From positions 62,001 through 126,000 of IMG/VR virus record IMGVR_UViG_3300031576_001126: a DNA stretch of 64,000 bases; one strand, 5' to 3'. The DNA comes from a virus. The translations under genes were made by a program, and so were the position numbers. Under the pieces are notes generated by a model. It had not been told where the DNA came from and ran no database searches. It saw only the letters and a list, made by a program, of their open reading frames with translations. Shown in pieces: positions 19,901 through 60,827 of this stretch (position 1 is its first letter; the number at the start of each line of letters is the position of its first letter).

Positions 19901-22900
19901 CATTCGAAGATAACGACATTGATTTCAATACTAAATTTCCTTCTTTAAGAATAGGAAAACTCGGAGATTTTTTAACTGTAGATTATAGTGGAAAAATAAC
20001 GGCAAGCAGATCGACAAATCAAACATTACAAAATGGATTATGGTATTCAAATACGTTCGGAGAAGGCTTTGTTAAAATAGATGGATTGGAAATCGGAGGG
20101 ATAGATGACAGACCAGGATGTTTGGATGCTTATCTTTTTGACAATGGGAGAGTTTCCGCAATATTAAATAATGACGATACAATAAGAATATTAACTAACA
20201 ATAATAGATTGCCGTCTGGAAATATTAATAAAGTTTTTACAACGCCAGACGGAAATATTTTTGCCCTAACCTCTAACGGTCTTTGCGTAATAGAAGGAGA
20301 TGAAGAACTTGAATTCTCTTCTTTTTTCTATAATAATTTCACAAATATAATGGATCTCGGTGCGGATCAAAGATATATTTTTGATGCGGAAAACAAAACC
20401 TTTATATTGAGTGGAATTCCTAATGAATTTTATGGAGACGAAACTCCAACGTTAGCTAGTTTTAACTTTAATAATGTCGTAGCCACGTTAAAAGACTCAA
20501 AAGAAACAATTTGGGTTGGAACAGAAGGGTTTGGTTTGTATGCTGTTTTTGGGAATAATATATACAACTTCAATGCTGATAATAGCAACATAGGAAGCAA
20601 TACAATAAGATCCGTAATAGAAGATAATAGAGGAAATATCTGGGTAGCAAGTGGAAATGGTGGGGTTTCCACCAGCTTTTACGGAGACAATATAAACGAG
20701 ATACCGGCAATAGTTTGGACAAACTTTCCAACTGGAATAGGGTTTACTGAAAATACAGGATTAACTGGGGCCGTAAATTCAATTAATGTAAGAAACACAA
20801 TGTCCATAATAGCCGACGGAACAGTAGATGTTCCTCAAGTAAATATAGATTGGACAAATATATCTTCTGTATTCCCAAAATCTATTATTTTACGAAGCAA
20901 TTCAACTATTACTCCGTCCGTCGTAAATGGGACAGATATAACTTTTGTTCCAATAAGAGACATAGTTTTAACCATCGAAGAAGAAACCAATAACGGGAAT
21001 CTTGTGTGGAGAATAACTGGCTCGACAGCAATCGATTATGGAACAAACAATCTTATTGGCAAGCACATTGTTCCAGACACAAGATCGAACACCAATGGTT
21101 TTGAAATAATTTTTAATTCTTTTAATTCGTTTGACATTCAAAGAGTTGAAGATGAAAATCCTCCGTCAATTGGTAATTTTATGATAGTCGAAAAGATCGA
21201 TTCCGCTTTTGTTGTCTATGCTGGTGACGGCACAGACATTGGTTTTAATTTTTCAGATGTCGATTTGCCAAACAACAATCAATATACATATTTCTTATTT
21301 TTTTATAATGATGTAAATTTCATATATAAATTAACAGACAGAAAGACTGTGGAGTTATCTGATTCTGAAATAGATTCTCAAAACGAACTCGATATGATTT
21401 GTGGTGGAAGTGGAGGATTGTTTAAATTTACTCCAAGCGAAGATACACAATTTACTTTTATTGCTTCGTTTGGAGAAGGAAATGATATCACAAATATATT
21501 CTTTGACACATCAAATATTGGTTGGCTTGCCGCAACAAGCAAGTTGGTTGAATTTAATTCTCCAAATATTATAACAGAATTCGGAATAAACGATTTATTT
21601 TCTGGTAAAACCGACAGTATCCCATCGTCCATGATTGTCAGAAATGCAGCCGAAAGATCAAACGGAGATATTGTCATAGCTACAGATGTGGGGCTATCCA
21701 TAAGGGATATTGCTGAATTTACTTCTATAATAGAGAATGATCCAGACATATCATTCAGAGATGATTCTGGAAATCTAACACTTAACGATTGGAGACCATC
21801 AACACTATTAAGTGCTGGGTCTGATCAGTTCAGTTTTATTGATGTTGGAGAAAACAACGCTCTTTTAGCCGTGAGAAAAAATATTTTTTCCACATCAAGT
21901 GGTGGTAATAATTGGTCAATAACAAACAACAACGATGACAACGTTATTTTCGATACTATAAAATTTGCTCACAAAATAGAAAAAGATAATGAAATAATAG
22001 ATATATTATTTTTCACAGACAGATCAATATATAGCTCTGGATCTGATAATATAGATATTTTAGAAACAGAAAATCTTCCATCAAGATCCGGCATTCTTGA
22101 ATCTTATTCAATAGGAGATATGTGGTTATCAGAAGGACCATCTTCATCAAGACTGATCATCGGGATGTATAATAACAATATTGTTGAAGAAGAAAGAGAA
22201 CTTGCTATTATTGATTTTTCATCACCTGATGAATTTACCACGCCTGTAACATTTATAAGTGGAAAAGATGGATTATCCATTCAATCTGCATATTCCTTCG
22301 CTGAAATAAATGACGGATTAGACATAATAATATGCTCAGGGTGTAAGGATTCGATAATATTTAAAAAGAATAGCGATTCTTGGAAACCCTTTATAACCGG
22401 AGAAATCGAACCGGAAACATTTGTTTATACCTCATTGTCCGCCAGAGTAGATGAAGAATCAATAGAACATGGAAAAACATTATATGCCACAAGAACTCCT
22501 ATCTATGGTGTTGATTTTGCACCTCAAGTATTATCATTCAGAATAGACGCCCCGTTGGTTGATAATAAAGTATTTAAATACGATGTAAACGGTTCGTTGG
22601 CTGGAAGAGTGCGAGATGGATTTCGGATTTATCCATCTCCGATAATCAAAGTGGACCGTCCAGCGATTGGCGAGTACAATCCCCAATGGTTCCAAAAAAA
22701 CATATATCGTGGGCATATTGGGGCAGTTAAATTTATAGAGTCAAGCAGATCTCTTGTTTTGGGAGGGTTTGCAAACACTTTAATGGTTATTCCCTTTACG
22801 GCGGAAAGATCGGATGATTTTAGGAAATTGGCATGTGGTGTTTATTCTGGTCTTAGAGGACATAGAAATTTCATTCCCAATCAAGCTGCTTATTCATCAA

Positions 22901-25900
22901 CAGAATATGTGGGATTTTATTTGCCATATGAAATCAATGAAGATTCAATATTCGCATCAGGTGTTTTCTCATTCTCTTCTGGCCTTAACAATAAAACAGA
23001 ATCGAACTTCTTGACAAAAAACAAAAATGCATGGTCTGTGAAATTTAACGAAGAAGATGGTTTCGCTTCATATTTACATTTTGGACAAAATAATTTTAAT
23101 GATAACAAGAAATTTAAATTTAATTCTACGGATAACATTAGTTATTTAATGAAGACAAGAGATGGCGGACAAATATGGTATTCCTCGATAAACAATGTCA
23201 CCGGAGAAAGCGAATTCCCGGTTGCCTCTGTCGGCGATTGGATTTTCAATAAATTAGATCAAGATAATATTATAATTTCAACAGTTAACGGTTTATATGA
23301 GTCTGGAGAATATAATTCTGGAATATTTGTTACGTTTGATGGAGGACATGGTTGGAGCAACGTTACTGATGTTCTTCCAAAGGTTCCGGCAAAATCCATA
23401 GAATTAATAGAAGATAAAGTTTATGCCGGTATGCTTGGGTACGGCGTTTTTAATACAAGCTTGGCTTCAATAAATTCTCTTGTTCCTGATTGGGAACAGT
23501 TTGAGTCAAGATACACAACTCTCAATGGAATTAATATAGGTCTATGGAATGTCACTTCTATAGAGGAGGACAGAATTAATCCCGAAAGATTATTGATTGG
23601 GACAACTAATCAAGGGGTTGTTCAATCTCTCAATTCTGGAGAAAGTTGGTCTTTCGATGATAATGGAATTCCTTCTGGAAATATAACCGTCATAAAAATG
23701 TTAGCCGTGAATCCCTTTGTCACTCTTGTTGGAATAAAAAACGATGGGCTTTACATAAAAAATAATGACATACAAAAATATGAAAAGAAAACAAATGGAC
23801 TTCCAACAAATTCAAATATAAGAGATATAAAAATAGACATAACATTCTCTGATATATATCTTGAATTTAATTATTCTAATTCTCTGAATGATTTTATATT
23901 AATAATAAGGGCTGATTTCTTGCCTCCTTCAAGGACTCCTGAAAACGGGGTATTATATCAAGTTGGAGGAGAAATAGAAAATGCTAACGTTGTATATTTT
24001 GGAAATGAAGATTTCTCTCTAAATAAATTTGTGGATAGGAACGGAAAGATAAGAGATGGTATTCCATATTATTATAGATTTTTTACATTGAATTTAGATG
24101 GGACATATACCGAAAGAGATATTATTCTTGGAAAATCAACCCTTGTGGAATCATTAAAAATAACAGACACTAGTAGCGCTCGTCTGGCCGATCCATTCCC
24201 AACGTCTGGGAATGGATTAAAACACAGAATCGTCAAACCATCCACATTAACAACACAATCCAAGCCAATGGAGATAGTTTCAAATACAGGAACAGAATTG
24301 TTCTTGAGAGCAGATCCTTTTGAAATATTAAATAGAGGGGGGGATGCTACTTTTGGAAACAGTATATTAAGGAATCAGCAATATCGCATAGATTCAACCC
24401 TTATCGTTATTCCAATAAAGATAAATCCCATTTATATTATAGCTGAAGATATTTCAAATGGAATTTCTAAAGTTTACTATTCTAACAACAACGGCGAATC
24501 CTGGTTTGAAAGAAATTCAGGAATAACATCTACGGACATTAGAACGTTAACTTTGGAAATATTAAATATCGAATCAAGACTTCTTTTAGAACAGGCTGCA
24601 ATATACATATCTACTGCCGATGGAGTTTTTAAAAGCGAAGACAATGGATTGAGTTGGAACGAAATAAGTTCTTCTTCCGGAACAAATATCCTTCCAAACT
24701 CCATTCCATATAGAAAAGTTGTAGTGGATCTTGAAGACTGCAATATAGTTTATGCTTTAAATGATAACGGAGAAACTTTTAGAAGCTTGAATGAGGGAGA
24801 TTCTTGGGAACTTATGAATTCTTTTGATGGAGAGTTTAATGTGGCGGATATTGTTTCTTTCTTTACAAACCATATATATGTTGGGACAAATGGAGATGGA
24901 ATAATAAGGTTAGAAAATTCAGTAAGAGATAGAATTGATCTAAACGTTATAGCTGATGGGAATATCTCGTTTTTCGATATAGATTTCATAGAAATAGGTG
25001 ATTTTGCATCGACAGATACAAACTCAATAACAGCAAGCACTCTTGTTAAAAATGATTCCATATCGAACAACAGAGAACAAATAAGATTTAAAACAAAAGA
25101 ATATGCAAACAATATTCAAATACTTATTAAAAATAATGATATTCCATTTAATGTTGAGGATGTATTCATCGGTGATCAGCTTGCTAATCCTCCTAGTAAT
25201 CCGTTTATCTTAAGAATCCCCGAAACAGAAGACGATCCTACAATAGTTAATCAAATTATATCTCTTTCTGATAATAATTTGTATGCCGCAACAAACAGGG
25301 GGGCCTTTTTTACGAGTGATTTTGGATTAAAATGGAATAAAATAAACAATCCGGAATTGCCAGATGAAATTCTGGATATCGCCGATATAAGAAATAATGA
25401 ATTGGCATTAGCGACAGCAAGCGGACTATGGACCAGCACTAACGATAGAAAAGATTTTGGAATAATAGAATCTTCAGGAAAAAGAATAAATACTATTTTT
25501 GAATCTTCAGATAGAATAGTGAGAAATTTGATTAGGGGAGGAGAAAATGGTCTTAGAATTACAATAGAAAATTCAAAAAGTATAATAGCCTTTTCTGGAA
25601 AAAACAGACAAATAAAATTAAGCTGGGGCGATATCTTTAACAGAGTGGACGGAGGATGGTCTGAAAACACTCAAATAATATTGGCTGATCCAATTTTCAG
25701 ACCAATAAAACCCGATGATAATTCTTTGACAAGTTTTGATGGATGGGATCATGCCCTTATTGTTAGGAAAGGACCGTTTACTACTTTTGAAAAAGCTTTG
25801 GCTGCTGGAATAAACAACAATATATTTGCTCCCCAAACACAAGTTGTTTATCCAACTAATACTTTGGTTAGCGTTTATAACACCCCAATATCAATTGCTC

Positions 25901-38660: not shown

Positions 38661-39668
38661 ATGAGTAAAAAATTTCTATTGATAACACGGGACTATTGGC
38701 CGGGTGTTGTTAATTGTTTAAAAAACATAGAGTTTGCAATTCGTGATATTGATCCATTGTTTAATGTTGAAAGCATATTAATAGGCAAAGGTGGAGTCGG
38801 CATTGATATAATGAAGAAAATAAAGCAGAATCCACCTGATTTTATAATTTTTGGTGGATGGGATAATGCCATTAAAATGCTGGTGCATAACACGCCTAAA
38901 GAATCCAAAGTAATGGTAAAATGGTGTTCTCCAATAACTCAAATTGAATTGGGTGGAGAAATGGCTCAGTTTATTGATGTTTTGCATTTAAGCCAAACCG
39001 ACAAAATACATTATATTGGAATGGGTTTAGAAAGTGACGTAAATTGTTTAAATAAAATCAACAAAAAAGTTATATTGATGCCTGTTTTTTTAGACACAAA
39101 AGAGCTTGATAGAATAGAATCGAAAACAGACATAAAAAGAGATGGCATAAATTGTGATCTTTTTTGTGCCGCCAACCCAAGAAAGAATATATTAGCTCAG
39201 TTATTCGCTTTGTCTAGGTTTGACGAACAGATTGCCGTTCATGTGAATTATGGGAACAATGCTAATCAAATGTATCCCGTTGTGGCGAGTTTTACAATAA
39301 AAAACTTGATAAACCACGGATGGATTGGAGATAGAAAACAATATTTATCGATTATAAAAGCTATGGATTTTGCAATGGCAGTGACTCTTTCAGAAAGCTT
39401 CAATTATACGGCTGCTGAACATATGGCTTTCGGAATTCCAATTATTTGTTCTGAAGTCGCACCATTTGTTCAGGGAGTTAAAAACATAGAAAAGATTGTT
39501 ATTCAAAGACCTGAGGATTTAAGAGAAATAGAGAAAGCGATTAAGCTTTTGGTCTCTGATGCCTCGTTTAGGAGAGACATGGGGCATGCTTGCAAGGAAG
39601 CGTTTGAGCTCTACAATAATGCCGCAAAAGACATTTTAAAGGGGAATCTCACGGAGATTGCTTTATGA
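38661..39668 (+). CDS. GT4-like glycosyltransferase
   Basis: 335 residues. The N-terminus (KKFLLITRDYWPGVVNCLKN) is a GT-B Rossmann start. The C-terminal half carries FCAANPRKNILAQLFALS, WIGDRKQYLSIIKAMDFAM, then SESFNYTAAEHMAFGIPIIC, which fits the donor-binding E-x7-E region of GT4/GT1 enzymes. GGAG about ten bases upstream supports the ATG at 38661, two bases after the preceding stop. The N-terminal domain is shorter than usual, so acceptor recognition may be unusual. It is part of the coupled glycan operon. Confidence 0.8.
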   Translation: MSKKFLLITRDYWPGVVNCLKNIEFAIRDIDPLFNVESILIGKGGVGIDIMKKIKQNPPDFIIFGGWDNAIKMLVHNTPKESKVMVKWCSPITQIELGGEMAQFIDVLHLSQTDKIHYIGMGLESDVNCLNKINKKVILMPVFLDTKELDRIESKTDIKRDGINCDLFCAANPRKNILAQLFALSRFDEQIAVHVNYGNNANQMYPVVASFTIKNLINHGWIGDRKQYLSIIKAMDFAMAVTLSESFNYTAAEHMAFGIPIICSEVAPFVQGVKNIEKIVIQRPEDLREIEKAIKLLVSDASFRRDMGHACKEAFELYNNAAKDILKGNLTEIAL

Positions 39669-40666
39669 AGATAGCATTAATAGGAGCTTTCAATTTGGCT
39701 GATGGTTATCTTGGAGCAGCAAAAGCTCTCCAAAGATTAGGACATGAAGTTGTTTTTGTCCCGGCTTATTTATATAATAATGAACATGGATTATCAAAAC
39801 ATCATTTAGTTATAGTTGATCATTTATTGAAAGAAAAACCAGATGTTTGTTTATGGTGGAGAGCAGAAACTCTTAATTCCATTCAATTTGGCAAAATAAG
39901 AAAAACAGTTCCCGGAAAATTCATCATGTATTCTTGGGATGATCCTTTGCAATGGGAAAAACATCCAGAAATGCCATTAAAATGTAAATGTCTGGATGCT
40001 GCTTTTTCTTGTTGTATGGATTCGGTTAAAATGTATAAAGCACATGGATGTCCAGAAGCATATTGGTGTCCACCGGGTTTTGATCCAGAGGTGCATTATC
40101 CCGAAGAAGACGAGGCTTATAAATGTGATATTAGTATAGTTTGCACAAATCTTTATAATGAAAAATCCGTAACACAATATCCCCATATATCTAGAAAATA
40201 CTTGCTTGATAAAATAATAGAAGAATATCCAAATGTTGATTTGAGAATATATGGATCAGAGGCATTTAAAGATATTTATCCGAACCATTACAAGGGTTGG
40301 ATTCCATTTAATGAGTCAAGAAAAGTTTTTCATAACAGTAAAATAAATTTAGATACGCATATTCGTCCTGATGGGAACATGTATATAAATGAAAGAGTTT
40401 GTCAAATTTTAGGCTCCGGTGGGCTTCTCATGGTTGATGCCGTGAAAGGATTGGAAAAGGTTTTAACAGATGTAACATATCTGTCTATTGACTCATCAAA
40501 AGATATTTCTTCGCAAAATCTTATGCTTGAGGCTACTCTAAATGAGATAAGTAATGATACTGACGGTAAATATAAAAATTTCATTGAAAAAACACGAGAA
40601 TTTGCTATGAAAAATCTAACATGGGATTGTTGGGCCAAAATAATAAATGAAAAAATGAAGATATAA
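39665..40666 (+). CDS. CgeB/YkvP-like glycosyltransferase
   Basis: 333 residues. The layout matches the CgeB family (GT-B fold, often encoded by phages): MKIALIGAFNLADGYLGAAK at the start, KPDVCLWWRAETLN, and FIMYSWDDP, an acidic DDP motif typical of the family. It continues with YWCPPGFDPEVHYP, then the C-terminal block YINERVCQILGSGGLLMVDA that binds the donor. The start overlaps the preceding stop by four bases (ATGA), with GGAG upstream. The likely role is transfer of a sugar in the same glycan pathway; the substrate is unknown. Confidence 0.85.
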   Translation: MKIALIGAFNLADGYLGAAKALQRLGHEVVFVPAYLYNNEHGLSKHHLVIVDHLLKEKPDVCLWWRAETLNSIQFGKIRKTVPGKFIMYSWDDPLQWEKHPEMPLKCKCLDAAFSCCMDSVKMYKAHGCPEAYWCPPGFDPEVHYPEEDEAYKCDISIVCTNLYNEKSVTQYPHISRKYLLDKIIEEYPNVDLRIYGSEAFKDIYPNHYKGWIPFNESRKVFHNSKINLDTHIRPDGNMYINERVCQILGSGGLLMVDAVKGLEKVLTDVTYLSIDSSKDISSQNLMLEATLNEISNDTDGKYKNFIEKTREFAMKNLTWDCWAKIINEKMKI

Positions 40667-40667
40667 A

Positions 40668-41288
40668 ATGAATGAATTTATAATGCGTGAATTTTCAAAT
40701 AAGTGTAAGGAGTTAATAAATTCAGAAAACGTATCGATACTTCTTAGTGACTCTGAGGTTGATTTTTTGGCCAACGATCTTGTCTCTGTCGAGAAAAAGA
40801 AATATTTAGAGATAGGAAGTTACGAGGGTGGATCGGCATTTATTGTTGGCCTTAGTATGAAAAAATTGGGCAAAGAAACAAATATGGAAGAAAGCGAATT
40901 TGAAATAATGTGTATAGACACATTCAAGTCGTCAAGTGAAGAATTTTCCGATAGGGGTAAAAGCACTTTTGAAAAATTTCAAAATGGAATATCAAAATTA
41001 AATCTTGGAGATATAATAAGATATAGGGTTGGAAGAAGCGAAGATATATGTAATGAAATACAAGATGGTTATTATGACATAATTTTTATAGATGGCGATC
41101 ACACCTATGAGGGCGTTAAGCAAGATTACGAAAATTACGTCAAGAAACTTAAGCCCGGAGGCCAATTAATGTTTCATGATTATAAGATGGCTCCCGGCGT
41201 TAGTGATTTTTGCAATGAAATGAATTCAAGTGTGGGCGGCGATAAGCTTGTCGATTTCAAACATACAATTTTTGGTTTTATATTATAA
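40668..41288 (+). CDS. Class I SAM-dependent methyltransferase (Methyltransf_24 type)
   Basis: 206 residues. Motif I is YLEIGSYEGGSAF, the acidic motif II is IMCIDTFKSS, and IIFIDGDHTYEGVKQDYENY is the hallmark IDGxHxYexvxxD segment of the Methyltransf_24/cephalosporin-hydroxylase-like group. It ends with LKPGGQLMFHDY. Family members often O-methylate sugars. Its place among glycosyltransferases suggests glycan methylation, possibly capping. The ATG at 40668 is one base after the previous stop; a second in-frame ATG (40683) is possible. Confidence 0.87.
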   Translation: MNEFIMREFSNKCKELINSENVSILLSDSEVDFLANDLVSVEKKKYLEIGSYEGGSAFIVGLSMKKLGKETNMEESEFEIMCIDTFKSSSEEFSDRGKSTFEKFQNGISKLNLGDIIRYRVGRSEDICNEIQDGYYDIIFIDGDHTYEGVKQDYENYVKKLKPGGQLMFHDYKMAPGVSDFCNEMNSSVGGDKLVDFKHTIFGFIL

Positions 41289-41300
41289 TTGGAGAATTAA

Positions 41301-41951
41301 ATGATACAAGAAATTGGATATAATTTTACACCCGAATGGGAAAAGAAATGGAAAGATTTGGAAGACCATATAATATATGAGATTCCAAATCTTGAAAAAT
41401 ATGGTTGGGTTGGTTCAAATTCCAATGTTGTTGAAATTGGAAGTGGATCGAACCCAAATCCAAGATCGAATGTTTTGGTTGAGCTTGAAGATGATGGATA
41501 TCACAGAGATTTCGAGAAGCTAAAAATAATGTCACACCAAAGAATAGTTTGGGGAGATATTTGTAAAGGCATTCCGGAGTTTATTGACAAACAATTTGAT
41601 TTTTCATATTGTGTCCATGTCCTCGAACATGTCCAATATCCAGAAGCGGCTTGCAAGGAACTTATGAGAATAAGCAAGAGCGGATATCTTGAAACTCCCG
41701 GACCATTTCTTGAAAAAGTTTGGAACTTCAAATTTCACAAATGGTATGTTGATGTTATCGATGGGGTTTTAACTTTTACTGATAAAAGTTTAATTCACAA
41801 GCCAATAAATATAGAGTTGAATCAATATGAGGATTTTATTTGTGGGCCTCCCAATATGAAGAACGGAACATTTGCTCATTTGAGTAGATTTCATAAATGT
41901 TTTACAAGAGTCAGATGGGTTGATAGTTTTGAGGTTAAGATTATAAGGTAA
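41301..41951 (+). CDS. Class I SAM-dependent methyltransferase (type 11-like)
   Basis: 216 residues. The SAM-binding loop is VVEIGSGSNPNPRSNVLVE, followed by WGDICKGIPEF and DFSYCVHVLEHVQYPEAAC (the HVLEH motif of type 11 enzymes), then CKELMRISKSGYLETPGP. GGAG lies six bases before ATG 41301. The C-terminal third is specific and probably binds the acceptor. It likely methylates a sugar or peptide within the same glycan pathway; the acceptor is unknown. Confidence 0.85.
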   Translation: MIQEIGYNFTPEWEKKWKDLEDHIIYEIPNLEKYGWVGSNSNVVEIGSGSNPNPRSNVLVELEDDGYHRDFEKLKIMSHQRIVWGDICKGIPEFIDKQFDFSYCVHVLEHVQYPEAACKELMRISKSGYLETPGPFLEKVWNFKFHKWYVDVIDGVLTFTDKSLIHKPINIELNQYEDFICGPPNMKNGTFAHLSRFHKCFTRVRWVDSFEVKIIR

Positions 41952-41957
41952 TTCATA

Positions 41958-43757
41958 ATGAAATTATTATTCTCAATGCCACATATAAGATGTAATGATA
42001 AGTTCGAAAGATGTCTTAGATCATTAAAAGAAAGAACTGCAAATCATGATATATTTCTATACATATGTAACTCTTTTGGCAATGATAGAACTAAAAGCGA
42101 AATAGAAAACATATTATCAACAATTGGATTCAATAATTATAAAATAGACGTAAGTAAAAATAATTTTGGATGTTCTGTGGCATGGAATGTTGGTATAAAA
42201 TATGGAATTGATAATAATTTTGATTATATAATTATTGCAAATGATGATATGTTATATTCAAAAGATTGGTTTGAAAATTGCTTAAAGTGGTTTGAAAAAT
42301 ATCCGAAATTGGATTGTGTTCATCCAATGATAGTCGGCGACATAGAGCTTGATGAGATTGGTTTTGACAATCTTTGTGAAAATACATTGCTTCCCAAACA
42401 TGAAGATAACTTTAATACCGGAATTGCATTCGGAGCTATGGTTTGTAAAAAATCTCTATTTGAAAAGATAGGTTTGCTTGACGAAAATTATTATCCGGCA
42501 TTTTATGAAGATATTGATTATGCCTTCAGAATGTTCTTGAATGACGATTGTTATTTTATAACTTGTGGAGATTCTTTTATATATCATTTTAAACATAGCA
42601 CAACTGGAAAAATATATATTAATTCTGAAAATTGCAAGAAATACTATTACAAGAAGTGGGAGGGTAAAAGCGGAGAGGATGCGAGCAGCAATGCAACATT
42701 AAGAGTTGTCTCATATATTAATGATGTGAAATCATATGAATCAAATAAAAGAGTTGATAAAAATTTCAAATGTGCAGATTCATCAATAATAGAAAGCCCA
42801 ATAATTATTGAAGAAATAAATTCTAAGAAAAAGCTTGTTTATATCTCTTATCTTAGGAGTGACTTTCTTGACGATGTTGTTTTTAGTGGATTGCGATATT
42901 TCTCTGACAAATACGATCTTTACTACATCATACCAGACGGAGCCGACTACATAACAAGAAAGAATAGATGCCATTTCAAGACAAGAACGGATTGGGCGAG
43001 AACAGCTTCGGTTATGAAGCCATTTGATTACAATACTGATTATGACATATGCATTGTGGGCCAACTTTGGCAAGAAAGTCAAGCCTGTTACAATTCATTC
43101 AAGGGAAAAGTAAAGTTTACATGCTGCATAGACGGAATGGACAATCCAACGACGCCACAGGTTGATCACGATCTTTTAATTAGGAGAGAGACCGCAGATA
43201 CAAAAATATTTGTGCCGTTTGCGTGTCCGTACGATATAGTCTATAAAGAAAATACAAAAATACCAAAATATTTTGTAAATTTCCAAATGAGCGATACTTA
43301 TAAGACTAGACGTGATTTTTTCAATAAAATTGTTCAAATAAATCCTGAAAATTCAATCATAACCTTCCAACCTTGGGGAAAAGAAATTCTCGGAAATGCT
43401 CCATTTACACCACAAGAAGATTGGTGGAACGTTTTGGAGGAAAGCAAAGCAATAATGAATGATCGAGGGGCCGGAGGGGATGCTTTTAGATTTTGGGAGG
43501 GAATGGCAACCGGAAATTTTGTTGTTTCCTCAAGAAGGCAAATATTTAACGATCTGCCATCTCCGCCAAATGTTATTTGGTTTGATGATTTGAACGAATT
43601 GGATTCAATAATTTGTGATTTGAGAAAAGTCAGTGATGACGAACTTATGGTCGTGAGAAAAAAGTCGAAAGAGTTCGTGAAACAACATCACATGCCAAGA
43701 AACAGAACCGAAAAAGTATTGTTGAGGATAGAGGAAAAAATAAATGAAAGACATTAA
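41958..43757 (+). CDS. Bifunctional glycosyltransferase: GT2 plus C-terminal GT-B/CgeB-like domain
   Basis: 599 residues. Residues of about 1-230 form a GT2 domain: NFGCSVAWNVGIKYGID, YIIIANDDMLYSKDWF with its NDD metal site, and GLLDENYYPAFYEDIDYAFR, the ExxDxxxR acceptor-side motif of rhamnosyl-type GT2 enzymes. Residues of about 275-599 look like a GT-B or CgeB-type domain (KLVYISYLRSDFLDDVVFSG, then AIMNDRGAGGDAFRFWEGMA and GNFVVSSRRQIFNDLPSPPN). It is the second GT fusion in the island. The C-terminal 14 bases overlap the next gene, implying coupling. Confidence 0.83.
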   Translation: MKLLFSMPHIRCNDKFERCLRSLKERTANHDIFLYICNSFGNDRTKSEIENILSTIGFNNYKIDVSKNNFGCSVAWNVGIKYGIDNNFDYIIIANDDMLYSKDWFENCLKWFEKYPKLDCVHPMIVGDIELDEIGFDNLCENTLLPKHEDNFNTGIAFGAMVCKKSLFEKIGLLDENYYPAFYEDIDYAFRMFLNDDCYFITCGDSFIYHFKHSTTGKIYINSENCKKYYYKKWEGKSGEDASSNATLRVVSYINDVKSYESNKRVDKNFKCADSSIIESPIIIEEINSKKKLVYISYLRSDFLDDVVFSGLRYFSDKYDLYYIIPDGADYITRKNRCHFKTRTDWARTASVMKPFDYNTDYDICIVGQLWQESQACYNSFKGKVKFTCCIDGMDNPTTPQVDHDLLIRRETADTKIFVPFACPYDIVYKENTKIPKYFVNFQMSDTYKTRRDFFNKIVQINPENSIITFQPWGKEILGNAPFTPQEDWWNVLEESKAIMNDRGAGGDAFRFWEGMATGNFVVSSRRQIFNDLPSPPNVIWFDDLNELDSIICDLRKVSDDELMVVRKKSKEFVKQHHMPRNRTEKVLLRIEEKINERH

Positions 43758-44505
43758 AGATAGAATAAAAGTTGGCATAGTATCCATGTGCAATCATGGT
43801 CTTACCGACAAATGCATTAAAAGCTGTATAAAGAGTGGAATAAATGATGTTTATGTTTTTTGCAATTCATCAACAATAAATTTCGATAATTCCGTAAGAC
43901 ACGATATAGCTGGAAGAAATATCGGGGTGTCATATGGCTGGAATATGCTGGTCAAAGATTTTTTGAAAAGTGACAAAGATTATCTTTTTATATGCAATGA
44001 TGATATAATATTTATGAATAATTGGCATATTTGTGCCAAACATTTGGATGATGAGAGAATTGGTATTGTTAGCCCATTGCTTTTAGAGAGGAAGTTTTAT
44101 GACGATATTTCTGGAAGTTCCAATATATTCCTGAATGACTGGCAAAATGTATGTTTGTTTGGATGTTTTGGGATTAACAGAAAGACTATAGAGAAAATTG
44201 GCATGTTCGATGAAGAGTTTGAATGTTGTGGCGAAGATAGCGATTATAAGGCCAGAATCTTCAAATATGCCCTATCCTCGGAAAATCCAATTTTGATGAT
44301 GACTGACAATAGCTGTTATGTTTTTCATTATGGTGGTCAATCTCTAAAATCTTCATTTAACGAAACCAGAGAAAAATCAAAGATGGCCAATATACTTTTT
44401 GATAGAAAACACCCGGAATGGCCGACATTGACAAGGGCCAATTATGACAGGGTTTCCATAGAATATGGCAAGAAATTGGAATGCGTTAAAAATGGAATCG
44501 AATAA
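43744..44505 (+). CDS. GT2-family glycosyltransferase
   Basis: 253 residues, a single GT-A domain. AGRNIGVSYGWNMLVKDFL, then YLFICNDDIIFMNNWH with an NDD metal-binding motif, and IGMFDEEFECCGEDSDYKAR with the ED-x-D-Y acceptor motif. These match the N-terminal domain of the preceding gene, so the two may be paralogues. The start lies inside the end of the preceding gene. It likely acts in the same glycan assembly pathway. Confidence 0.85.
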   Translation: MKDIKDRIKVGIVSMCNHGLTDKCIKSCIKSGINDVYVFCNSSTINFDNSVRHDIAGRNIGVSYGWNMLVKDFLKSDKDYLFICNDDIIFMNNWHICAKHLDDERIGIVSPLLLERKFYDDISGSSNIFLNDWQNVCLFGCFGINRKTIEKIGMFDEEFECCGEDSDYKARIFKYALSSENPILMMTDNSCYVFHYGGQSLKSSFNETREKSKMANILFDRKHPEWPTLTRANYDRVSIEYGKKLECVKNGIE

Positions 44506-45253
44506 TAAAGTTTCAATATGCATAAGTCATTTTAATAGACCGCTCGCACTTAAGCAGGCAATTTTGGGAATAAACAAGTTTATAAGACCAAACTATTGCA
44601 ATATTGAAGTTCTAGTTTCTGACGATGGGTCGAGCAAGGAGAATGTTGATGATATTTCAAAAATAGATGGTATAGATAAACTTCTATTTAATGAACATAT
44701 TGGCGGAGGTTCAAACAACAATAAACTTATATGTAATTGTTCTGGAGATTATATTATATGGCATCAAGACGATTTTGAGTGCCTTGGATATGACAATTTC
44801 ATAGAAGATTGTATAATTCTATCGGAGGTTGAGAATTGTGGAATAATAAGACTTTCGGGATTCAATGGAAAATTCGAAAAAACACCATTCAGAATAGATA
44901 GAATGCCAGAAGACACAAAGCCGGGTTTTAGATATGAATTAAAGGAACATGTGGGAATTCCTTATGCTGAGGCGATACGAGAAAGTGATGAATTAGTTAA
45001 GGTTCGGGGAGATCTTAGATGTCTTTATAGCGATCATCCACATTTCAAAACAAGGAAATTCATCGAAAAAATAGGTTTGTACAAAGAAGGTGCGAGCATC
45101 TGGAGATCGGAAGGGGATTTTGTCGAAAGATATTGGAATGATGGATTTAAGACTATTTTTTGGGGAAATTTGATAGTAAGTAGCAATTTTAAGACAACCA
45201 AAACTATTTTGAGTGATAAAGAACAGGAATTGATAAATAGAAATATTCTATAG
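44492..45253 (+). CDS. GT2-family glycosyltransferase
   Basis: 253 residues from ATG 44492; an in-frame ATG at 44465 would add nine residues. I prefer 44492 because the GT-A strand KVSICISHFNRPLALKQ follows at once. EVLVSDDGSSKENVD is the nucleotide-binding DDGS motif, and GDYIIWHQDDFECLG holds the DD-containing metal site. The start overlaps the previous gene by 14 bases. It is less similar to the previous gene than that one is to its upstream neighbour. Confidence 0.83.
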   Translation: MESNNKVSICISHFNRPLALKQAILGINKFIRPNYCNIEVLVSDDGSSKENVDDISKIDGIDKLLFNEHIGGGSNNNKLICNCSGDYIIWHQDDFECLGYDNFIEDCIILSEVENCGIIRLSGFNGKFEKTPFRIDRMPEDTKPGFRYELKEHVGIPYAEAIRESDELVKVRGDLRCLYSDHPHFKTRKFIEKIGLYKEGASIWRSEGDFVERYWNDGFKTIFWGNLIVSSNFKTTKTILSDKEQELINRNIL

Positions 45254-45263
45254 GAGAATAAAA

Positions 45264-45827
45264 ATGAAAGCCAAAGGGAATGTTGTTGATGATTATAACG
45301 GTATAATTTGTTCTGTTATAAATGCATGTGAGTTTAAGAACTATCTTGAATTGGGATTGGCAGGCGGACATCAGTTTGATAAAGTCTCCAAAAATTGTCC
45401 AAACCTAGAAACTATGGTTGCGGTTGATATTAGAACTTCCGATTGGACTATATTTAATCCACTACCAACAAACCCAAGAATGAAAATATATAATGGTACG
45501 AAAACTGATGATTTCTTTGCAAATAACGTGAAGGATCATAAATTTGATGTTGCTTTTATAGACGCCTGTCACAACTATGATCAAGTTATGAGAGATTTTA
45601 ACAATGTCTTGAATGTAATTGAAGAAGATGGAATAATTTTCATGCACGATACCTATCCTCCCAATCAATCTCATACCACAGAAGGAGCATGTTCCGACGC
45701 ATATAAAGCGTATATGGATATATGCGATAATTATCGCAAAGTTTGTGAATGTGTCAATGTTCCAATATTTTGTGGTCTAAATATTGTGAGGAAGATAAAT
45801 AGAAGTAGGAGAATATTAACGATATGA
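45264..45827 (+). CDS. Class I SAM-dependent methyltransferase (Methyltransf_24 type)
   Basis: 187 residues. YLELGLAGGHQFDKV is motif I, MVAVDIRTSDW motif II, and FDVAFIDACHNYDQVMRDFN is the IDxxHxYxxVxxD signature, with GIIFMHDTYPP after it. AGGAG stands about six bases before ATG 45264, one of the better ribosome-binding sites in the island. It is a shorter relative of the enzyme at 40668. A sugar O-methyltransferase role is inferred from its neighbours only. Confidence 0.83.
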   Translation: MKAKGNVVDDYNGIICSVINACEFKNYLELGLAGGHQFDKVSKNCPNLETMVAVDIRTSDWTIFNPLPTNPRMKIYNGTKTDDFFANNVKDHKFDVAFIDACHNYDQVMRDFNNVLNVIEEDGIIFMHDTYPPNQSHTTEGACSDAYKAYMDICDNYRKVCECVNVPIFCGLNIVRKINRSRRILTI

Positions 45828-46801
45828 TAGCCAACTCAAATATATTGATAACCGGAGGCACTGGCAGTTTTGGAAACAGAGTTGCCCAAAAAATAATTGC
45901 CATGAATCCAAAGTCGGTTTCAATATTGTCGAGAGACGAGAAAAAGCAATATGAGATGAAAAAGCTTTTCCCTGATTTCAGATATCTTATAGGCGATGTT
46001 AGGGATGCAAACAGGGTGGATTTTTGTTGCAAAAATATGGATTATATCTTCCATGCGGCTGCCTTAAAACAAGTTCCAAATTGCGAAGATTTCCCGCACG
46101 AGGCACTTCAAACCAACTCAATCGGATCATTCAATGTATGCAATTCTGCCATAAGAAACAGCGTAAAAAAGGTCGTATTTTTATCAACCGATAAAGCCGT
46201 AAAGCCAATAAACGCTATGGGTATCTCCAAAGCGATGATGGAAAAGATTGTTGTCTCCCAAAATAACAAAAACATAAACGACTGTGCCACAATATTCTGC
46301 TGCGTTAGATACGGAAACGTTATGGCGAGCAGGGGAAGTGTAATTCCATTTTTTAGGAAGTGTATAGAAAATGGATCTGATATACCAATAACTGTTCCAG
46401 AAATGACACGTTTTATGTTGACATTGGACGATGCCTGCGAGCTTATTTTCTATGCTTTTGAAAATTCGAAAGGCGGGGAAATCTTTGTCAAAAAATCTCC
46501 AGCCTGCACTGTTGATTTTCTTGTAGATTTCATGTTAAAATACCACGGTGGGTCTAGCCAAAAGAAAATAATAGGCCCAAGACCGGGAGAAAAATATCAC
46601 GAGACCCTGATAAGTGAGTATGAATCCCTAAGAGCAAGCGACATGGGAAATTTCTTTGTTGTCCATTCGGAATATTCAAGTTATTTTAACAGTCATGTGG
46701 AATTTGGAATAGAATACACTTCTGAAAATACAAATAGAATAACAAACTATGATGATTTTTTAGATCTATACGAAAGGGCTAACTTTTTTGATTTGGAGTA
46801 G
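45824..46801 (+). CDS. UDP-GlcNAc 4,6-dehydratase-like enzyme (CapE/FnlA/PseB group)
   Basis: 325 residues, an extended short-chain dehydrogenase. ILITGGTGSFGNRVAQKII is the NAD(P)-binding loop; AALKQVPNCED, VVFLSTDKAVKPINAMGISK and PRPGEKYHETLIS are diagnostic of nucleotide-sugar 4,6-dehydratases acting on UDP-GlcNAc. The usual catalytic Tyr of YxxxK is Met here (MGISK); I recall Met-containing relatives in the CapE/WbjB branch, so this need not mean inactivity. It would make a 4-keto-6-deoxy sugar for the downstream reductase. The start overlaps the previous stop (ATGA). Confidence 0.88.
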   Translation: MIANSNILITGGTGSFGNRVAQKIIAMNPKSVSILSRDEKKQYEMKKLFPDFRYLIGDVRDANRVDFCCKNMDYIFHAAALKQVPNCEDFPHEALQTNSIGSFNVCNSAIRNSVKKVVFLSTDKAVKPINAMGISKAMMEKIVVSQNNKNINDCATIFCCVRYGNVMASRGSVIPFFRKCIENGSDIPITVPEMTRFMLTLDDACELIFYAFENSKGGEIFVKKSPACTVDFLVDFMLKYHGGSSQKKIIGPRPGEKYHETLISEYESLRASDMGNFFVVHSEYSSYFNSHVEFGIEYTSENTNRITNYDDFLDLYERANFFDLE

Positions 46802-46806
46802 TTTGA

Positions 46807-47691
46807 ATGATACTGGTTGCAGGAGGTTCTGGTGGTCTTGGTCGCACATTTGTTGATCGAGACCATCTTGGAACCCACTTCTCTAAGAAATATAAAAACA
46901 CTGAATTCGCCGATTTTTCAAAATCAGAAAATGAAACTTGGAAGAAGCTTGACGAACTTTGTCGTGGCAAAGATATTGATTGTGTTGTTTCGACCATTTC
47001 TTATACCGATGTTGATGGTTCTGAAAGAGATTTCGAAAAAAGCAAAAAAATAACAAGAGACTCAAATATACAAATATGTGATTGGTGTAATAAAAACAAA
47101 TTACCATTTATATTTATATCGTCCAATGATATTTTTGATGGAGAAAGGGGACTGTATCTCGAAAATGATAAACCCCTTCCAGTGAACAATTACTGCCTTC
47201 ATAAAATTGAGGCAGAAGAGCATATATTAAAATGCGAGGGAGACAATCTTATTATTAGATGCAGTCTTCTTGAAGATTATAGCTCATTCAAAAAAATACC
47301 ACTTATAGTAAAGATTTATAATTCAATTATAGAAAAAATCGACGTAAGTTTATTTCGTGATTCATATAATAGTCCCGTAAGTATCGAGTTTGTTTGCGAT
47401 TTTATTGAAAGTTTTTTGAAATCGAATTTCAAAAAATGGAACGGGATAAGACATCTGCACAGCGAAAGGGTTTCAAAATATGAAATCGGGGAGATAATGT
47501 GCGATATTCTTGGATACAACTATAATAATATAAAAGAGTCATCAATATCCGATTGCAATTTCTTGGCAAAGAGGCCAAAAGACGTTTCTTTGCTTTCGCT
47601 TTATGATAATTGTAATCTTGGAAGTATTCATAAAAACATATCCAATATAATTTACAGCATAGGACAAAAGGACAAGACACTCAATGGATAG
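46807..47691 (+). CDS. RmlD-like nucleotide-sugar 4-ketoreductase
   Basis: 294 residues. ILVAGGSGGLGRTFVDRD is the Rossmann loop. DCVVSTISYTDVDGSERDF matches the RmlD segment where dTDP-4-dehydrorhamnose reductases read AA/YTxVDxAE. FIFISSNDIFDGERG is the STDYVFDG-like motif, and NNYCLHKIEAEEHIL contains the catalytic YxxxK. It lies five bases after the dehydratase, so it probably reduces that enzyme's 4-keto product. It lacks the C-terminal cupin domain of CapF. The sugar made (for example a 6-deoxy-HexNAc) is inference. Confidence 0.82.
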   Translation: MILVAGGSGGLGRTFVDRDHLGTHFSKKYKNTEFADFSKSENETWKKLDELCRGKDIDCVVSTISYTDVDGSERDFEKSKKITRDSNIQICDWCNKNKLPFIFISSNDIFDGERGLYLENDKPLPVNNYCLHKIEAEEHILKCEGDNLIIRCSLLEDYSSFKKIPLIVKIYNSIIEKIDVSLFRDSYNSPVSIEFVCDFIESFLKSNFKKWNGIRHLHSERVSKYEIGEIMCDILGYNYNNIKESSISDCNFLAKRPKDVSLLSLYDNCNLGSIHKNISNIIYSIGQKDKTLNG

Positions 47692-57225: not shown

Positions 57226-58056
57226 ATGGAAAGCATGCAAAAGACATTTTCCTTGAGTAAAGCAATGGAAAATGACGAAAAAAAGTTTTATAGAAAAAAT
57301 TCCGACATTCCTAAAGAATATTGGGCATATCGGTGGGTCAAGGTTTCCGATGGAGATAAATTTTATGATCCAGAATTCTCAACTCAAAACAAGATAATTT
57401 CTGAAAAAACAATTTTCAATAGAACTAAAGCCAGAGATTTCGCTATAGATTATGTTAAAAATTTAGATCAAAATATTTCTTCCGGAAAGTCTATAGTATT
57501 TATGGGTGGAAAAGATTCAGGAAAAACTGTTCTTGCAACATTAATTTTAAGAGAGATTATCAACAAAACACTTGGAGACGTTTTGTTTGTGCCGTTTAGT
57601 CAACTTATCGTTGAATCAAATGTATATCTTCAAGACGATATAAAGAATTTTACAGAGAAATATACATCTCCGTTGGCTTTGTGTATTGACGATATTGATG
57701 TAAGGAACACCTCCGAGAAGCTTAAAGAATACTTAGATCATATTTTAACTTTTAGAAGATTAAATCTTCTGCCAACAATCATTACCTCGGTGGGAGACTT
57801 TAAGGACATTAGAAAGACATGCGGAGATCCCGTATATAGATTATTATCCGATAACAAAATATATAAAATATTTAGCATAGCGTCTTTTGATGAACAAAAT
57901 TATGGTATAGATTATTTTCACACAGGACACAAGGTCGATATAGATTTGTTAATCTCGGAACTTAGAAAGATAAAGATTTCCAAAGGAAAAGAAAACAAAA
58001 TAAGTATGGAAGAGCTTCAATCCGTTCTTTGTAGAGCTATTCATGGACAGAGTTGA
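57226..58056 (+). CDS. DnaC-like helicase loader ATPase
   Basis: 276 residues. The N-terminal 80 residues include IPKEYWAYRWVKV, a segment common in DnaC/DnaI-type loaders just before the ATPase core. IVFMGGKDSGKTVLATLILR is Walker A, LALCIDDIDVRN Walker B, and LLPTIITSVGDFKDIRKTCG the sensor 1 region. It would load the DnaB-type helicase encoded by the next gene, with which it overlaps by 14 bases. A second ATG at 57235 is possible. The usual N-terminal zinc site of DnaI is not visible. Confidence 0.88.
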   Translation: MESMQKTFSLSKAMENDEKKFYRKNSDIPKEYWAYRWVKVSDGDKFYDPEFSTQNKIISEKTIFNRTKARDFAIDYVKNLDQNISSGKSIVFMGGKDSGKTVLATLILREIINKTLGDVLFVPFSQLIVESNVYLQDDIKNFTEKYTSPLALCIDDIDVRNTSEKLKEYLDHILTFRRLNLLPTIITSVGDFKDIRKTCGDPVYRLLSDNKIYKIFSIASFDEQNYGIDYFHTGHKVDIDLLISELRKIKISKGKENKISMEELQSVLCRAIHGQS

Positions 58057-59671
58057 ATTAGAAAATCAAATTATATATTTTATATTGTCTGATCCAAAAC
58101 TTCTTGAATCTTCAATTTTGGAAAAGGGAATAGATGTATCTTCTTTTTCCGACGAGGGCAATAGATTAGTTTCGTCCATGGCGTTTGACTATTTTGAAAG
58201 ATTTGGAAAATGCGTTCCAAAAGAAGAGTTTGATATTTTAATAAACGATAAGCTAAATAAGAAAAAAATAACCCAGGCACAACATCATTCCTCAATAAAA
58301 GCTTTTAAAAGAGCGTTGAATTTGGATGGAGAAATTACTCCTGTGCAATTTGACCGAATTGCTTATGATTTGGTGTCTGTCGTTAAAAACACATCAGCAA
58401 GAGAAATAATTTTAAAACATAGCGGTCTTTTAAATAGTTTCAAAACGCTGGATTATATAGATAAAATAACCGGAGAATTAGACAAATTAAGAATAAACAA
58501 CGGGGAACTGGACGATATAGAGGTTCTTGATGTTTATAAAGATATAGAACTTCAAATTGAGGATTTGAAGAAAAGAAGAAACGATGAAAATGCCAGAGGA
58601 ATTCCAACAGGAATAAGAACTTTAGATGAAAGATTTGTTGGCTTTGAAAAGAGATTTTTGACAATAGTTGCGGCTGTTATTAATACAGGAAAATCTACAT
58701 TCGTATTAAATGTGTCAAGAAATGCCGCTGAATTTTTTGGAAAAAAAGTTTTAATCATGTCCCTCGAAATGCCAACTAAGCAATGGGCAAGAAAATATAA
58801 TGCGTTGGATTGTTGGGTTCCATATAGCTACTTGCAAAGAGGAAACAAAACGCTTTTGCCAGATGATGAGTTTGAAAACTTTTGTAAGCGGCTGGAAGAA
58901 AGACGAGACAAAGGAAGGTCGGGAGAATATAGGATTATTTCTGCCCCGGCTAGTAAATATTCATTTAAAGAACTAATGAATCTTAAAGATAAAAAACTAC
59001 CAACATATAAGCCAGATATTATTTTTATAGACCAACTATCTTTAATTAAACTTCCTGGCAAAAGAGAAAAAAAAGATGAATTGGGAGATTTGACAAAAGA
59101 AATAATAGCCTATGGATATATAAAAGATATCGCAATGGTCGCCGTGGCCCAAGCGAACAGGGCGTCAATTAGAAGAAATGGAGCTAAAAGGGAAATAGAT
59201 ATCAATATAGAAAACTTGGAAGACTCAAATAAAATAGGCGCAGATGCTCATAATGTTTTAGCGCTTATGTCTCCTCCGTCTTCCGGTGGCCATAGAATGT
59301 TGCTTAAAATAGTGAAACAACGAGATGGAGAAACAGGAACTTTTGAAATAGCATCAAGATTGGATTATTGTGCTATAATTGATATCGAAACAGAAGAAAT
59401 TGGAAATTCATCGCTTGAAGATGGAGATCTCGTTTTTGGAGAAGAAGAAATTGATGATACGGGTCTTGATGCGATATCAGGCGAGCCAGTTAAAGCGAAC
59501 CTTCCTGAAAATCTTTCAAAAGCCATAGCGATAGATTCTCGACCAAACAATGAAGATTCAATACTGAACAAAAGCGCAGAAGAGTTAAAGAAACAAAAGA
59601 ATCCATTTGCCGCAGATGACGATTACGATATTATAAGAACAAATGAGATGGAAGATATTTTTAATGAGTAA
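58043..59671 (+). CDS. dnaB: DnaB-like replicative DNA helicase
   Basis: 542 residues. The N-terminal helical domain (ELENQIIYFILSDPKLLESS) is followed by GIPTGIRTLDERFVGFEKRF, the DnaB entry to the RecA-like core. Walker A reads AAVINTGKST, with Ala where the first Gly normally stands. VLIMSLEMPTKQWARKYNAL is motif 1a with the catalytic Glu, DIIFIDQLSLIKLP Walker B, and AMVAVAQANRAS motif 3. KIVKQRDGETGTFEIASRLD carries the arginine-finger region. It unwinds the fork in the 5'-3' direction and works with the loader gene upstream. The acidic C-terminal tail is longer than usual. Confidence 0.95.
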   Translation: MDRVELENQIIYFILSDPKLLESSILEKGIDVSSFSDEGNRLVSSMAFDYFERFGKCVPKEEFDILINDKLNKKKITQAQHHSSIKAFKRALNLDGEITPVQFDRIAYDLVSVVKNTSAREIILKHSGLLNSFKTLDYIDKITGELDKLRINNGELDDIEVLDVYKDIELQIEDLKKRRNDENARGIPTGIRTLDERFVGFEKRFLTIVAAVINTGKSTFVLNVSRNAAEFFGKKVLIMSLEMPTKQWARKYNALDCWVPYSYLQRGNKTLLPDDEFENFCKRLEERRDKGRSGEYRIISAPASKYSFKELMNLKDKKLPTYKPDIIFIDQLSLIKLPGKREKKDELGDLTKEIIAYGYIKDIAMVAVAQANRASIRRNGAKREIDINIENLEDSNKIGADAHNVLALMSPPSSGGHRMLLKIVKQRDGETGTFEIASRLDYCAIIDIETEEIGNSSLEDGDLVFGEEEIDDTGLDAISGEPVKANLPENLSKAIAIDSRPNNEDSILNKSAEELKKQKNPFAADDDYDIIRTNEMEDIFNE

Positions 59672-60827
59672 AGAAGATAATAGTGTCTTTTATCTTAATA
59701 TTTTTGATGAAATAAGATCAACTGTCTCTCTAGTTAAAGAGATGGAGAGCCATGGAATAAAATTTGTGTCAGGGGGGAGAGGGAGGCTCAAATGTTGTTG
59801 TCCTTTTCCAGATCACAAAGACGGAACACCATCATGTTTTGTCTGGACAAACAATGATCCTGAGTCATTTTATTGTTTTGGATGTAAAAAAAGTGGCAGT
59901 GTTATTGATTTTACAATGTATTATGGAGAAAACGGGCAAGATCAACTAACCTTACGTAGCTCTATAGAATATCTTATAAAAAAACATGATATAAAGTCAG
60001 ACAGATTTGATATAGAAAAAATAAAAAATATTCCAGACAAGTATAAAAAAAATGAGCCTCCGTTTTTTTCAAAAACATTACTAATTTCAGAAGACATTAG
60101 AGATTTTATTTCACAATCTATAGATCTCGATAGAGATTTTAAGGAAATTTCCCATTATACAAGAAATATAGATTTGTCTCTGTTTAATAGAGATTATCAG
60201 TCAATTGGGGTATATGAAGAAATAATAAGCAAAGCCCTTAAAAGTGTGAGAAAAAAAGATTTGATATTTGGTCTTAAAAAAGAATGTTTAAATTGTCATC
60301 TTTGTGATTTGAGGTTGGGTTGTAAGAAGCCAATTTTTGGAAATGGAAACTATTCGGCAAAAATTTTAATACTTTGGGATTCTCCTCATGAATTTGAAAA
60401 CAAACAAGATAAATTAATCGACTATGGGATAGGTAAAATTTTACAAGATAAAATTGTCAAAAATAAAATAGATATCTCTCTTTTTTGGTTTGCAACATGC
60501 ATTTGTTGCTCATCAAAAAGAAATCCCAAGACAGAAGAAGTAAATATGTGTATAAAATCTTATTTATCAAAAGTGTTGAATTGTATTGATATAAAAAGTA
60601 TAATAATTATTGGAGAAAAAACAAAAGATTTTTTATTGCCCAATATGATTGAGGAAGAATACAATTCTATGTGTTGGTCAAAAAGGTCCGTGACTTTGTT
60701 TGGGAAAAGTTATTCTGTGGCTTTTTTGCCTGAGACTTCTCGTATTTTTAACAAAAGTCAGGCTCAAAATTTGTTGGAGCCGAAATTTGTTGCGCTTTTG
60801 AACGAAGCCGTGATATCTTTGTCTTGA
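59664..60827 (+). CDS. DnaG-type CHC2 zinc finger fused to family-4 UDG-like Fe-S domain
   Basis: 387 residues from ATG 59664, which overlaps the dnaB stop by eight bases. Residues 46-74 are a CHC2 primase zinc finger: CPFPDH (C46, H51) and FYCFGC (C71, C74), with TPSCFVW between. After a linker with no TOPRIM motif, residues of about 208-380 resemble family-4 uracil-DNA glycosylase: CLNCHLCDLRLGCKKPIFGN, KILILWDSPHEF, then ATCICCSSKRNPKTEEVNMC. That last block is laid out like NVVKCRPPxNRxPxxxEIxxC and keeps Cys for an iron-sulphur cluster. The usual GExPGxxE catalytic loop is WDSPHEFE, so activity is doubtful. Role at the fork, perhaps priming-site recognition or uracil sensing, is inference. 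Confidence 0.82.
   Translation: MSKEDNSVFYLNIFDEIRSTVSLVKEMESHGIKFVSGGRGRLKCCCPFPDHKDGTPSCFVWTNNDPESFYCFGCKKSGSVIDFTMYYGENGQDQLTLRSSIEYLIKKHDIKSDRFDIEKIKNIPDKYKKNEPPFFSKTLLISEDIRDFISQSIDLDRDFKEISHYTRNIDLSLFNRDYQSIGVYEEIISKALKSVRKKDLIFGLKKECLNCHLCDLRLGCKKPIFGNGNYSAKILILWDSPHEFENKQDKLIDYGIGKILQDKIVKNKIDISLFWFATCICCSSKRNPKTEEVNMCIKSYLSKVLNCIDIKSIIIIGEKTKDFLLPNMIEEEYNSMCWSKRSVTLFGKSYSVAFLPETSRIFNKSQAQNLLEPKFVALLNEAVISLS

Follow-up and report, generated by a model that had tools for sequence, protein, structure and literature searches.

Bacterial and phage primases of the T4 gp61/DnaG type combine a CHC2 finger with a catalytic core of DNAG_N and TOPRIM domains. The finger and catalytic domains of T4 gp61 were found to bind the helicase at separate sites, with the DNA passing between them (PMC10359460), and primase subunits are able to prime in trans (Corn et al. 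2005, as cited in PMC10359460). Thus, a primase that consists of two proteins is mechanically plausible. The family-4 UDGs, which include TthUDG (PDB 1ui0) and the UDG of S. tokodaii (4zbx), are enzymes with four Fe-S cysteines. In UdgX, which belongs to the same structural group, N91 and H178 hold the uracil and R184 contacts the DNA backbone (PMC10359453).

UDG folds also occur on phage replication proteins. We found N-terminal UDG domains on the PolA proteins of SPO1 (gp31), LysYB1, PMBT14, ctfzr933 and L030, and the PolA of PaBG has also been described with such a domain (PMC7412058). The PolIII alpha of Pseudomonas phage Nican01 carries a UDG domain at its C-terminus, as probably does the PolIII alpha of phrog_4335. 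Vaccinia D4, a UDG, has a catalysis-independent role in replication (PMC1936997), and a structural role in the replisome has been described for the UNG of gamma-herpesviruses (PMC5934625).

Here we describe a phage locus in which the UDG fold is carried by the probable zinc-finger subunit of a primase. The stretch analysed (the window, 64,000 nucleotides) comprises bases 62001-126000 of a linear virus record of 140,188 bp. A first-pass annotation of the window had noted, directly after dnaB, a gene with an intact CHC2 finger, no TOPRIM core and a UDG-like domain with an altered catalytic loop, WDSPHEFE. This observation was confirmed (Table 1). The ATG of the gene and the stop codon of dnaB share an 8-nt overlap, and none of the TOPRIM profile models matched the protein, residues 90-200 included. 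Its two halves have similar GC contents (30.5 vs 29.8%) and similar codon usage, and the frame is open across the finger/UDG junction; therefore, an assembly chimera at this junction is unlikely.

Table 1. Features of the finger-UDG locus, numbered in the window unless a contig position is given.
Feature	Position	Strand	Basis or remark
DnaC-like helicase loader	57226..58056	+	phrog_50 E 4.9e-17
DnaB-like replicative helicase	58043..59671	+	phrog_19 E 1.2e-48; overlaps finger-UDG gene by 8 nt
Primase zinc-finger subunit fused to UDG fold	59664..60827	+	ORF, 387 aa, ATG start
CHC2 (Zn_ribbon_DnaG) domain, residues 13-112	59700..59999	+	PF01807 E 5.6e-12, over cut-off; PDB 2au3 DnaG E 5.9e-4
Zinc ligands C46, H51, C71, C74	59799..59885	+	C-x4-H spacing
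Probably helical linker, residues 113-195	60000..60248	+	alignable in finger-only proteins of G001 and G002
Degenerate family-4 UDG fold, residues 204-387	60273..60824	+	NF040953; AF2; Foldseek
Fe-S cysteines C211, C214	60294..60305	+	invariant in 57 rows
Altered motif A, WDSPHEFE, residues 238-245	60375..60398	+	family GE[AG]PGxxE
T278 at uracil-binding Asn position	60495..60497	+	57-row alignment
Fe-S cysteine C282	60507..60509	+	57-row alignment
Fe-S cysteine C296	60549..60551	+	57-row alignment
Altered motif B, LPETSRI, L355-I361	60726..60746	+	family HPxxxLR
TOPRIM primase core, 249 aa	contig 135523-136272, beyond window		PF08275, PF13662, PF13155 over cut-off

The C-x4-H spacing of the zinc ligands is rare. 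It was seen in 3 of the 105 distinct finger motifs collected, including that of the finger-UDG gene, and 101 of the 105 have C-x2-H. The same C-x4-H spacing occurs in an 810-aa protein (L002:5140-7569), which combines a central CHC2 finger with a DUF5906 domain; its finger is among the closest by score to that of the finger-UDG protein, and no TOPRIM was found in the 810-aa protein. The linker that follows the finger in the finger-UDG protein is a candidate for the part that contacts the helicase. Its helices appear solely in a low-confidence single-sequence model; the single-sequence AlphaFold2 model of the whole 387-aa protein had a pLDDT of 32 and was useless.

A search of the rest of the record for a stand-alone TOPRIM revealed a single gene, 12.7 kb downstream of the finger-UDG gene and between those for RecA and a Cas4-like nuclease. 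Its product contains DNAG_N and TOPRIM domains, and the 140,188-bp record holds one CHC2 locus and one TOPRIM locus. The two proteins cover complementary parts of the same primase profiles: in the DnaG profile TIGR01391, the finger-UDG protein covers positions 5-104 and the TOPRIM protein 194-360, and in the primase phrog_6444, they cover 36-104 and 117-367, respectively. This complementary coverage, together with the two-gene arrangement of a syntenic relative described below, supports the proposal that the finger-UDG gene is half of a split primase. Judged from these sequence comparisons, the phage encodes the two halves of a DnaG-type primase in separate genes, the finger in one and TOPRIM in the other, and we infer that the two products work together. 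A further primase may be encoded beyond the ends of the linear record. Like T4 gp61/DnaG, the phage primase has a CHC2 finger, a DNAG_N and TOPRIM core and an adjacent dnaB. Unlike them, it is divided between two distant genes, its finger half is fused to a UDG fold, and the helicase-binding C-terminal domain was not recognised in it.

The syntenic relative (IMGVR_UViG_3300040801_004519, 133 kb; here G001) shares its gene order with the finger-UDG phage: a UvsW-like helicase, dnaB, a 209-aa finger-only gene, PolIII alpha in two genes, RecA, a TOPRIM gene of 275 aa and a Cas4-like nuclease. Its finger protein aligns to approximately residue 200 of the finger-UDG protein and then stops where the UDG would start, and no UDG was found in the G001 record. 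A second relative (G002, 167 kb) has a finger-only gene of 206 aa after dnaB, and no TOPRIM was found in these 167 kb. Recoding was ruled out as the cause of the finger-only gene in G002, since alternative codes place the end of the gene at nearly the same position. A search for further relatives based on UvsW returned G001 as the sole close match. From these gene arrangements, the split appears to be older than the UDG fusion. Alternatively, the relatives have lost the UDG part; given so few relatives, its gain is the simpler, though tentative, interpretation.

We next consider the identity of the C-terminal part. It matched two family-4 UDG profiles, NF040953 (NCBIfam; E 8.8e-13, residues 204-337) and TIGR00758 (E 3.1e-9), with scores far below their curated cut-offs (48 bits vs 250 and 37 vs 125, respectively), and a sequence comparison with the PDB gave TthUDG (1ui0; E 9.4e-8). 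PF03167, the Pfam model for UDGs in general, did not pick up the C-terminal part, a sign of its divergence. An AlphaFold2 model of the UDG part, for which 56 viral UDG rows served as the alignment, had a pLDDT of 87.6 and a pTM of 0.85. In a Foldseek search of the PDB with this model, the best match was 1ui0 (E 3.3e-12), and 4zbx was matched with a TM score of 0.79-0.81; each of the 37 best matches was a UDG, and almost all belonged to family 4 or were UdgX. Because the alignment behind the model consisted of UDGs, the predicted fold is partly tied to the profile result and serves as support, not as independent proof; the independent evidence for the fold is the sequence-only matches. Together, these results support the assignment of the C-terminal part to the UDG alpha/beta/alpha fold, family-4 type. 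The description of this part as a degenerate family-4 UDG-like domain was borne out by the profiles, the fold and the residue-level alignment, and no other fold was found in residues 200-387. In a tree of UDG domains, the finger-UDG branch was very long (4.1) and its placement unsupported; the nearest row by path was the PolA of LysYB1. When viral contigs were scanned with the UDG half, the TOPRIM half and the UDG domain of LysYB1, no close relatives came back, and the analysis as a whole yielded no close homologue for the fused UDG part.

The residue-level alignment of the finger-UDG protein with the 56 viral UDG rows (57 rows in all) showed that all four family-4 Fe-S cysteines are kept, and that the loop after C282 retains an RNP stretch (CSSKRNP). 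The catalytic residues are not kept. WDSPHEFE, the loop that had been reported as altered, sits at the motif A position, and the Glu of this motif is replaced by D239. All 56 other rows have the uracil-binding Asn, and 55 of them have the motif B His; in the finger-UDG protein, these positions are taken by T278 and L355, and the DNA-binding Arg of motif B is replaced by I361. Since the Glu, Asn and His positions are changed and the Arg is lost, uracil excision by the finger-UDG protein is unlikely, and this activity has probably been lost. Some DNA-binding residues are among those lost; therefore, DNA binding by the UDG part may be gone, and its contact may be with a protein instead. The first-pass annotation had also offered a uracil- or single-strand-sensing factor at the fork; the loss of the uracil-binding residues and of the Arg counts against the sensing of uracil, and a more general binding of DNA by the protein is conceivable.

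Thus, the protein resembles the family-4 UDGs in its fold and its four Fe-S cysteines, and differs from them in its catalytic positions and in that its UDG domain lies within a larger replication protein. Although TIGR03914 matches it weakly, it is unlike UdgX in that no His of a KRRIH loop is evident, motif A reads WDSPH and not GEQPG, and motif B is altered. It shares with the UDG-PolA proteins (SPO1 gp31, LysYB1, PMBT14, PaBG) the placement of a UDG fold on a replication protein, and motif A is also degenerate (DNP, DKP) in several of the polymerase-fused domains; that of ctfzr933 PolA looks intact. In the UDG-PolA proteins, however, the carrier is a DNA polymerase and not a CHC2 primase finger. 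Several of them keep the motif B His, and the SPO1 UDG has lost the cysteines. The Nican01 PolIII alpha, and probably phrog_4335, is likewise a catalytic replisome protein with a UDG fold, but there the fold sits on a C-family polymerase. Vaccinia D4 and gamma-herpesvirus UNG may be functionally alike as UDG folds that are structural parts of a replisome; we claim no common membership, and unlike the fold described here, they are UNG-type, separate subunits and catalytically active.

A second CHC2-UDG fusion was not found among 93 frames with a finger from viral loci (some of these loci overlap), in 73 genome loci, among the 80 UDG loci listed from viral contigs, or by whole-protein tblastn of 50,697 phage records. 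Likewise, neither a CHC2-UDG fusion nor a two-gene DnaG primase was described in the literature searched, which covered few subscription journals. The parts themselves are known; as far as these sequence searches reach, what would be new is the fusion of finger and UDG together with the split of the primase. Unfused neighbours were seen elsewhere. In Bacillus phage KLEB27-3 (L131:1119-3049), a UDG gene lies 2 nt downstream of a primase gene. In a 51.9-kb record (L276), a stand-alone TOPRIM core gene (1901-2668) is closely followed by an intact UDG gene that also stands alone (3001-3552), and no CHC2 finger was found in this record.

We lean towards a two-gene DnaG-type primase in which the UDG fold of the finger subunit is a non-catalytic tether in the primosome. 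The CHC2 finger would locate start sites on single-stranded DNA as it emerges from DnaB, and primer synthesis would be carried out in trans by the TOPRIM protein. The UDG fold, no longer excising uracil, would be an Fe-S-stabilised module through which the finger subunit is held on DNA or on another protein of the fork, and this tether would make up for the lack of a covalent connection between the finger and the catalytic half. The fold is the obvious candidate for holding the finger subunit at the fork, and by analogy with poxvirus D4, which serves its polymerase in this way, tethering is its most likely role. A primase naturally divided into a template-reading and a catalytic protein would be useful for testing priming in trans. 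It would also place a primase beside the phage polymerases as a carrier of the UDG fold, which suggests that phages have repeatedly reused this fold as a replisome part, an idea that is testable through deletion of one domain.

Within a split primase, the UDG part could instead read the template, recognizing uracil, a modified base or an abasic site and slowing or licensing priming there. The fold is one that recognizes uracil, its Fe-S ligands and RNP stretch are kept, and thymidylate synthase or hydroxymethylase genes lie near UDG-PolA in several phages. However, motif A has been remodelled, other residues stand in place of the uracil-binding Asn and His, motif B lacks its Arg, and the genes scanned in the finger-UDG record include a thymidylate kinase but no thymidylate synthase; we consider such a reader unlikely. 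It is very unlikely that the fold scans the template for a phage-specific or damaged pyrimidine, placing or blocking priming there; if it did, the choice of primer sites would depend on base chemistry besides the sequence preference of the finger. Least probable is a UDG part that remains an active glycosylase, removing uracil or another base with its altered active site and thereby linking repair to the primosome. Such activity would be compatible with the family-4 fold, the Fe-S ligands and the acidic D239 at the Glu position, and it would have parallels in the intact UDG on the ctfzr933 PolA and in the stand-alone UDG genes beside primase genes in KLEB27-3 and L276, but the Glu, Asn and His positions have all changed, and the other rows of the alignment keep Asn without exception and His with only one.

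Also quite unlikely is a functionless UDG part that was captured by a split primase and has drifted passively since the fusion. Its absence from the finger protein of G001 and its very long branch in the tree would fit such drift, but the intact frame, the four retained cysteines, the confidently predicted fold and the neighbour-like codon use argue against it. Finally, the finger-UDG protein might be an unrelated regulator with a borrowed CHC2 finger, the TOPRIM protein priming alone. Finger-only proteins do occur in records where TOPRIM was not found (G002 and several others), and the distance between the finger and TOPRIM genes points in the same direction. We regard this explanation as highly improbable, since both genes and their order are conserved in G001, the two proteins are complementary in DnaG profiles, and the finger-UDG gene overlaps dnaB.

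The phage has several other features. Its PolIII alpha is also split, into genes of 454 aa (L013:1444-2808) and 715 aa (L013:4141-6288), as it is in G001. The N-terminal half of the G001 protein (L003:12582-15173) contains an apparent intein (PF14890 and LAGLIDADG_3) inside its PHP domain, and the finger-UDG phage has no intein at the corresponding place. An actin-like protein of the Volactin family (E 3.8e-56) is encoded at L009:10947-12059, and glycosyltransferase, methyltransferase and NDP-sugar epimerase-like genes are clustered at 38661-47691 of the window. A single open frame of 6287 codons extends from 7975 to 26838 of the window, and further giant frames have 4146 (L011:4010-16450), 2440 and 2195 codons.
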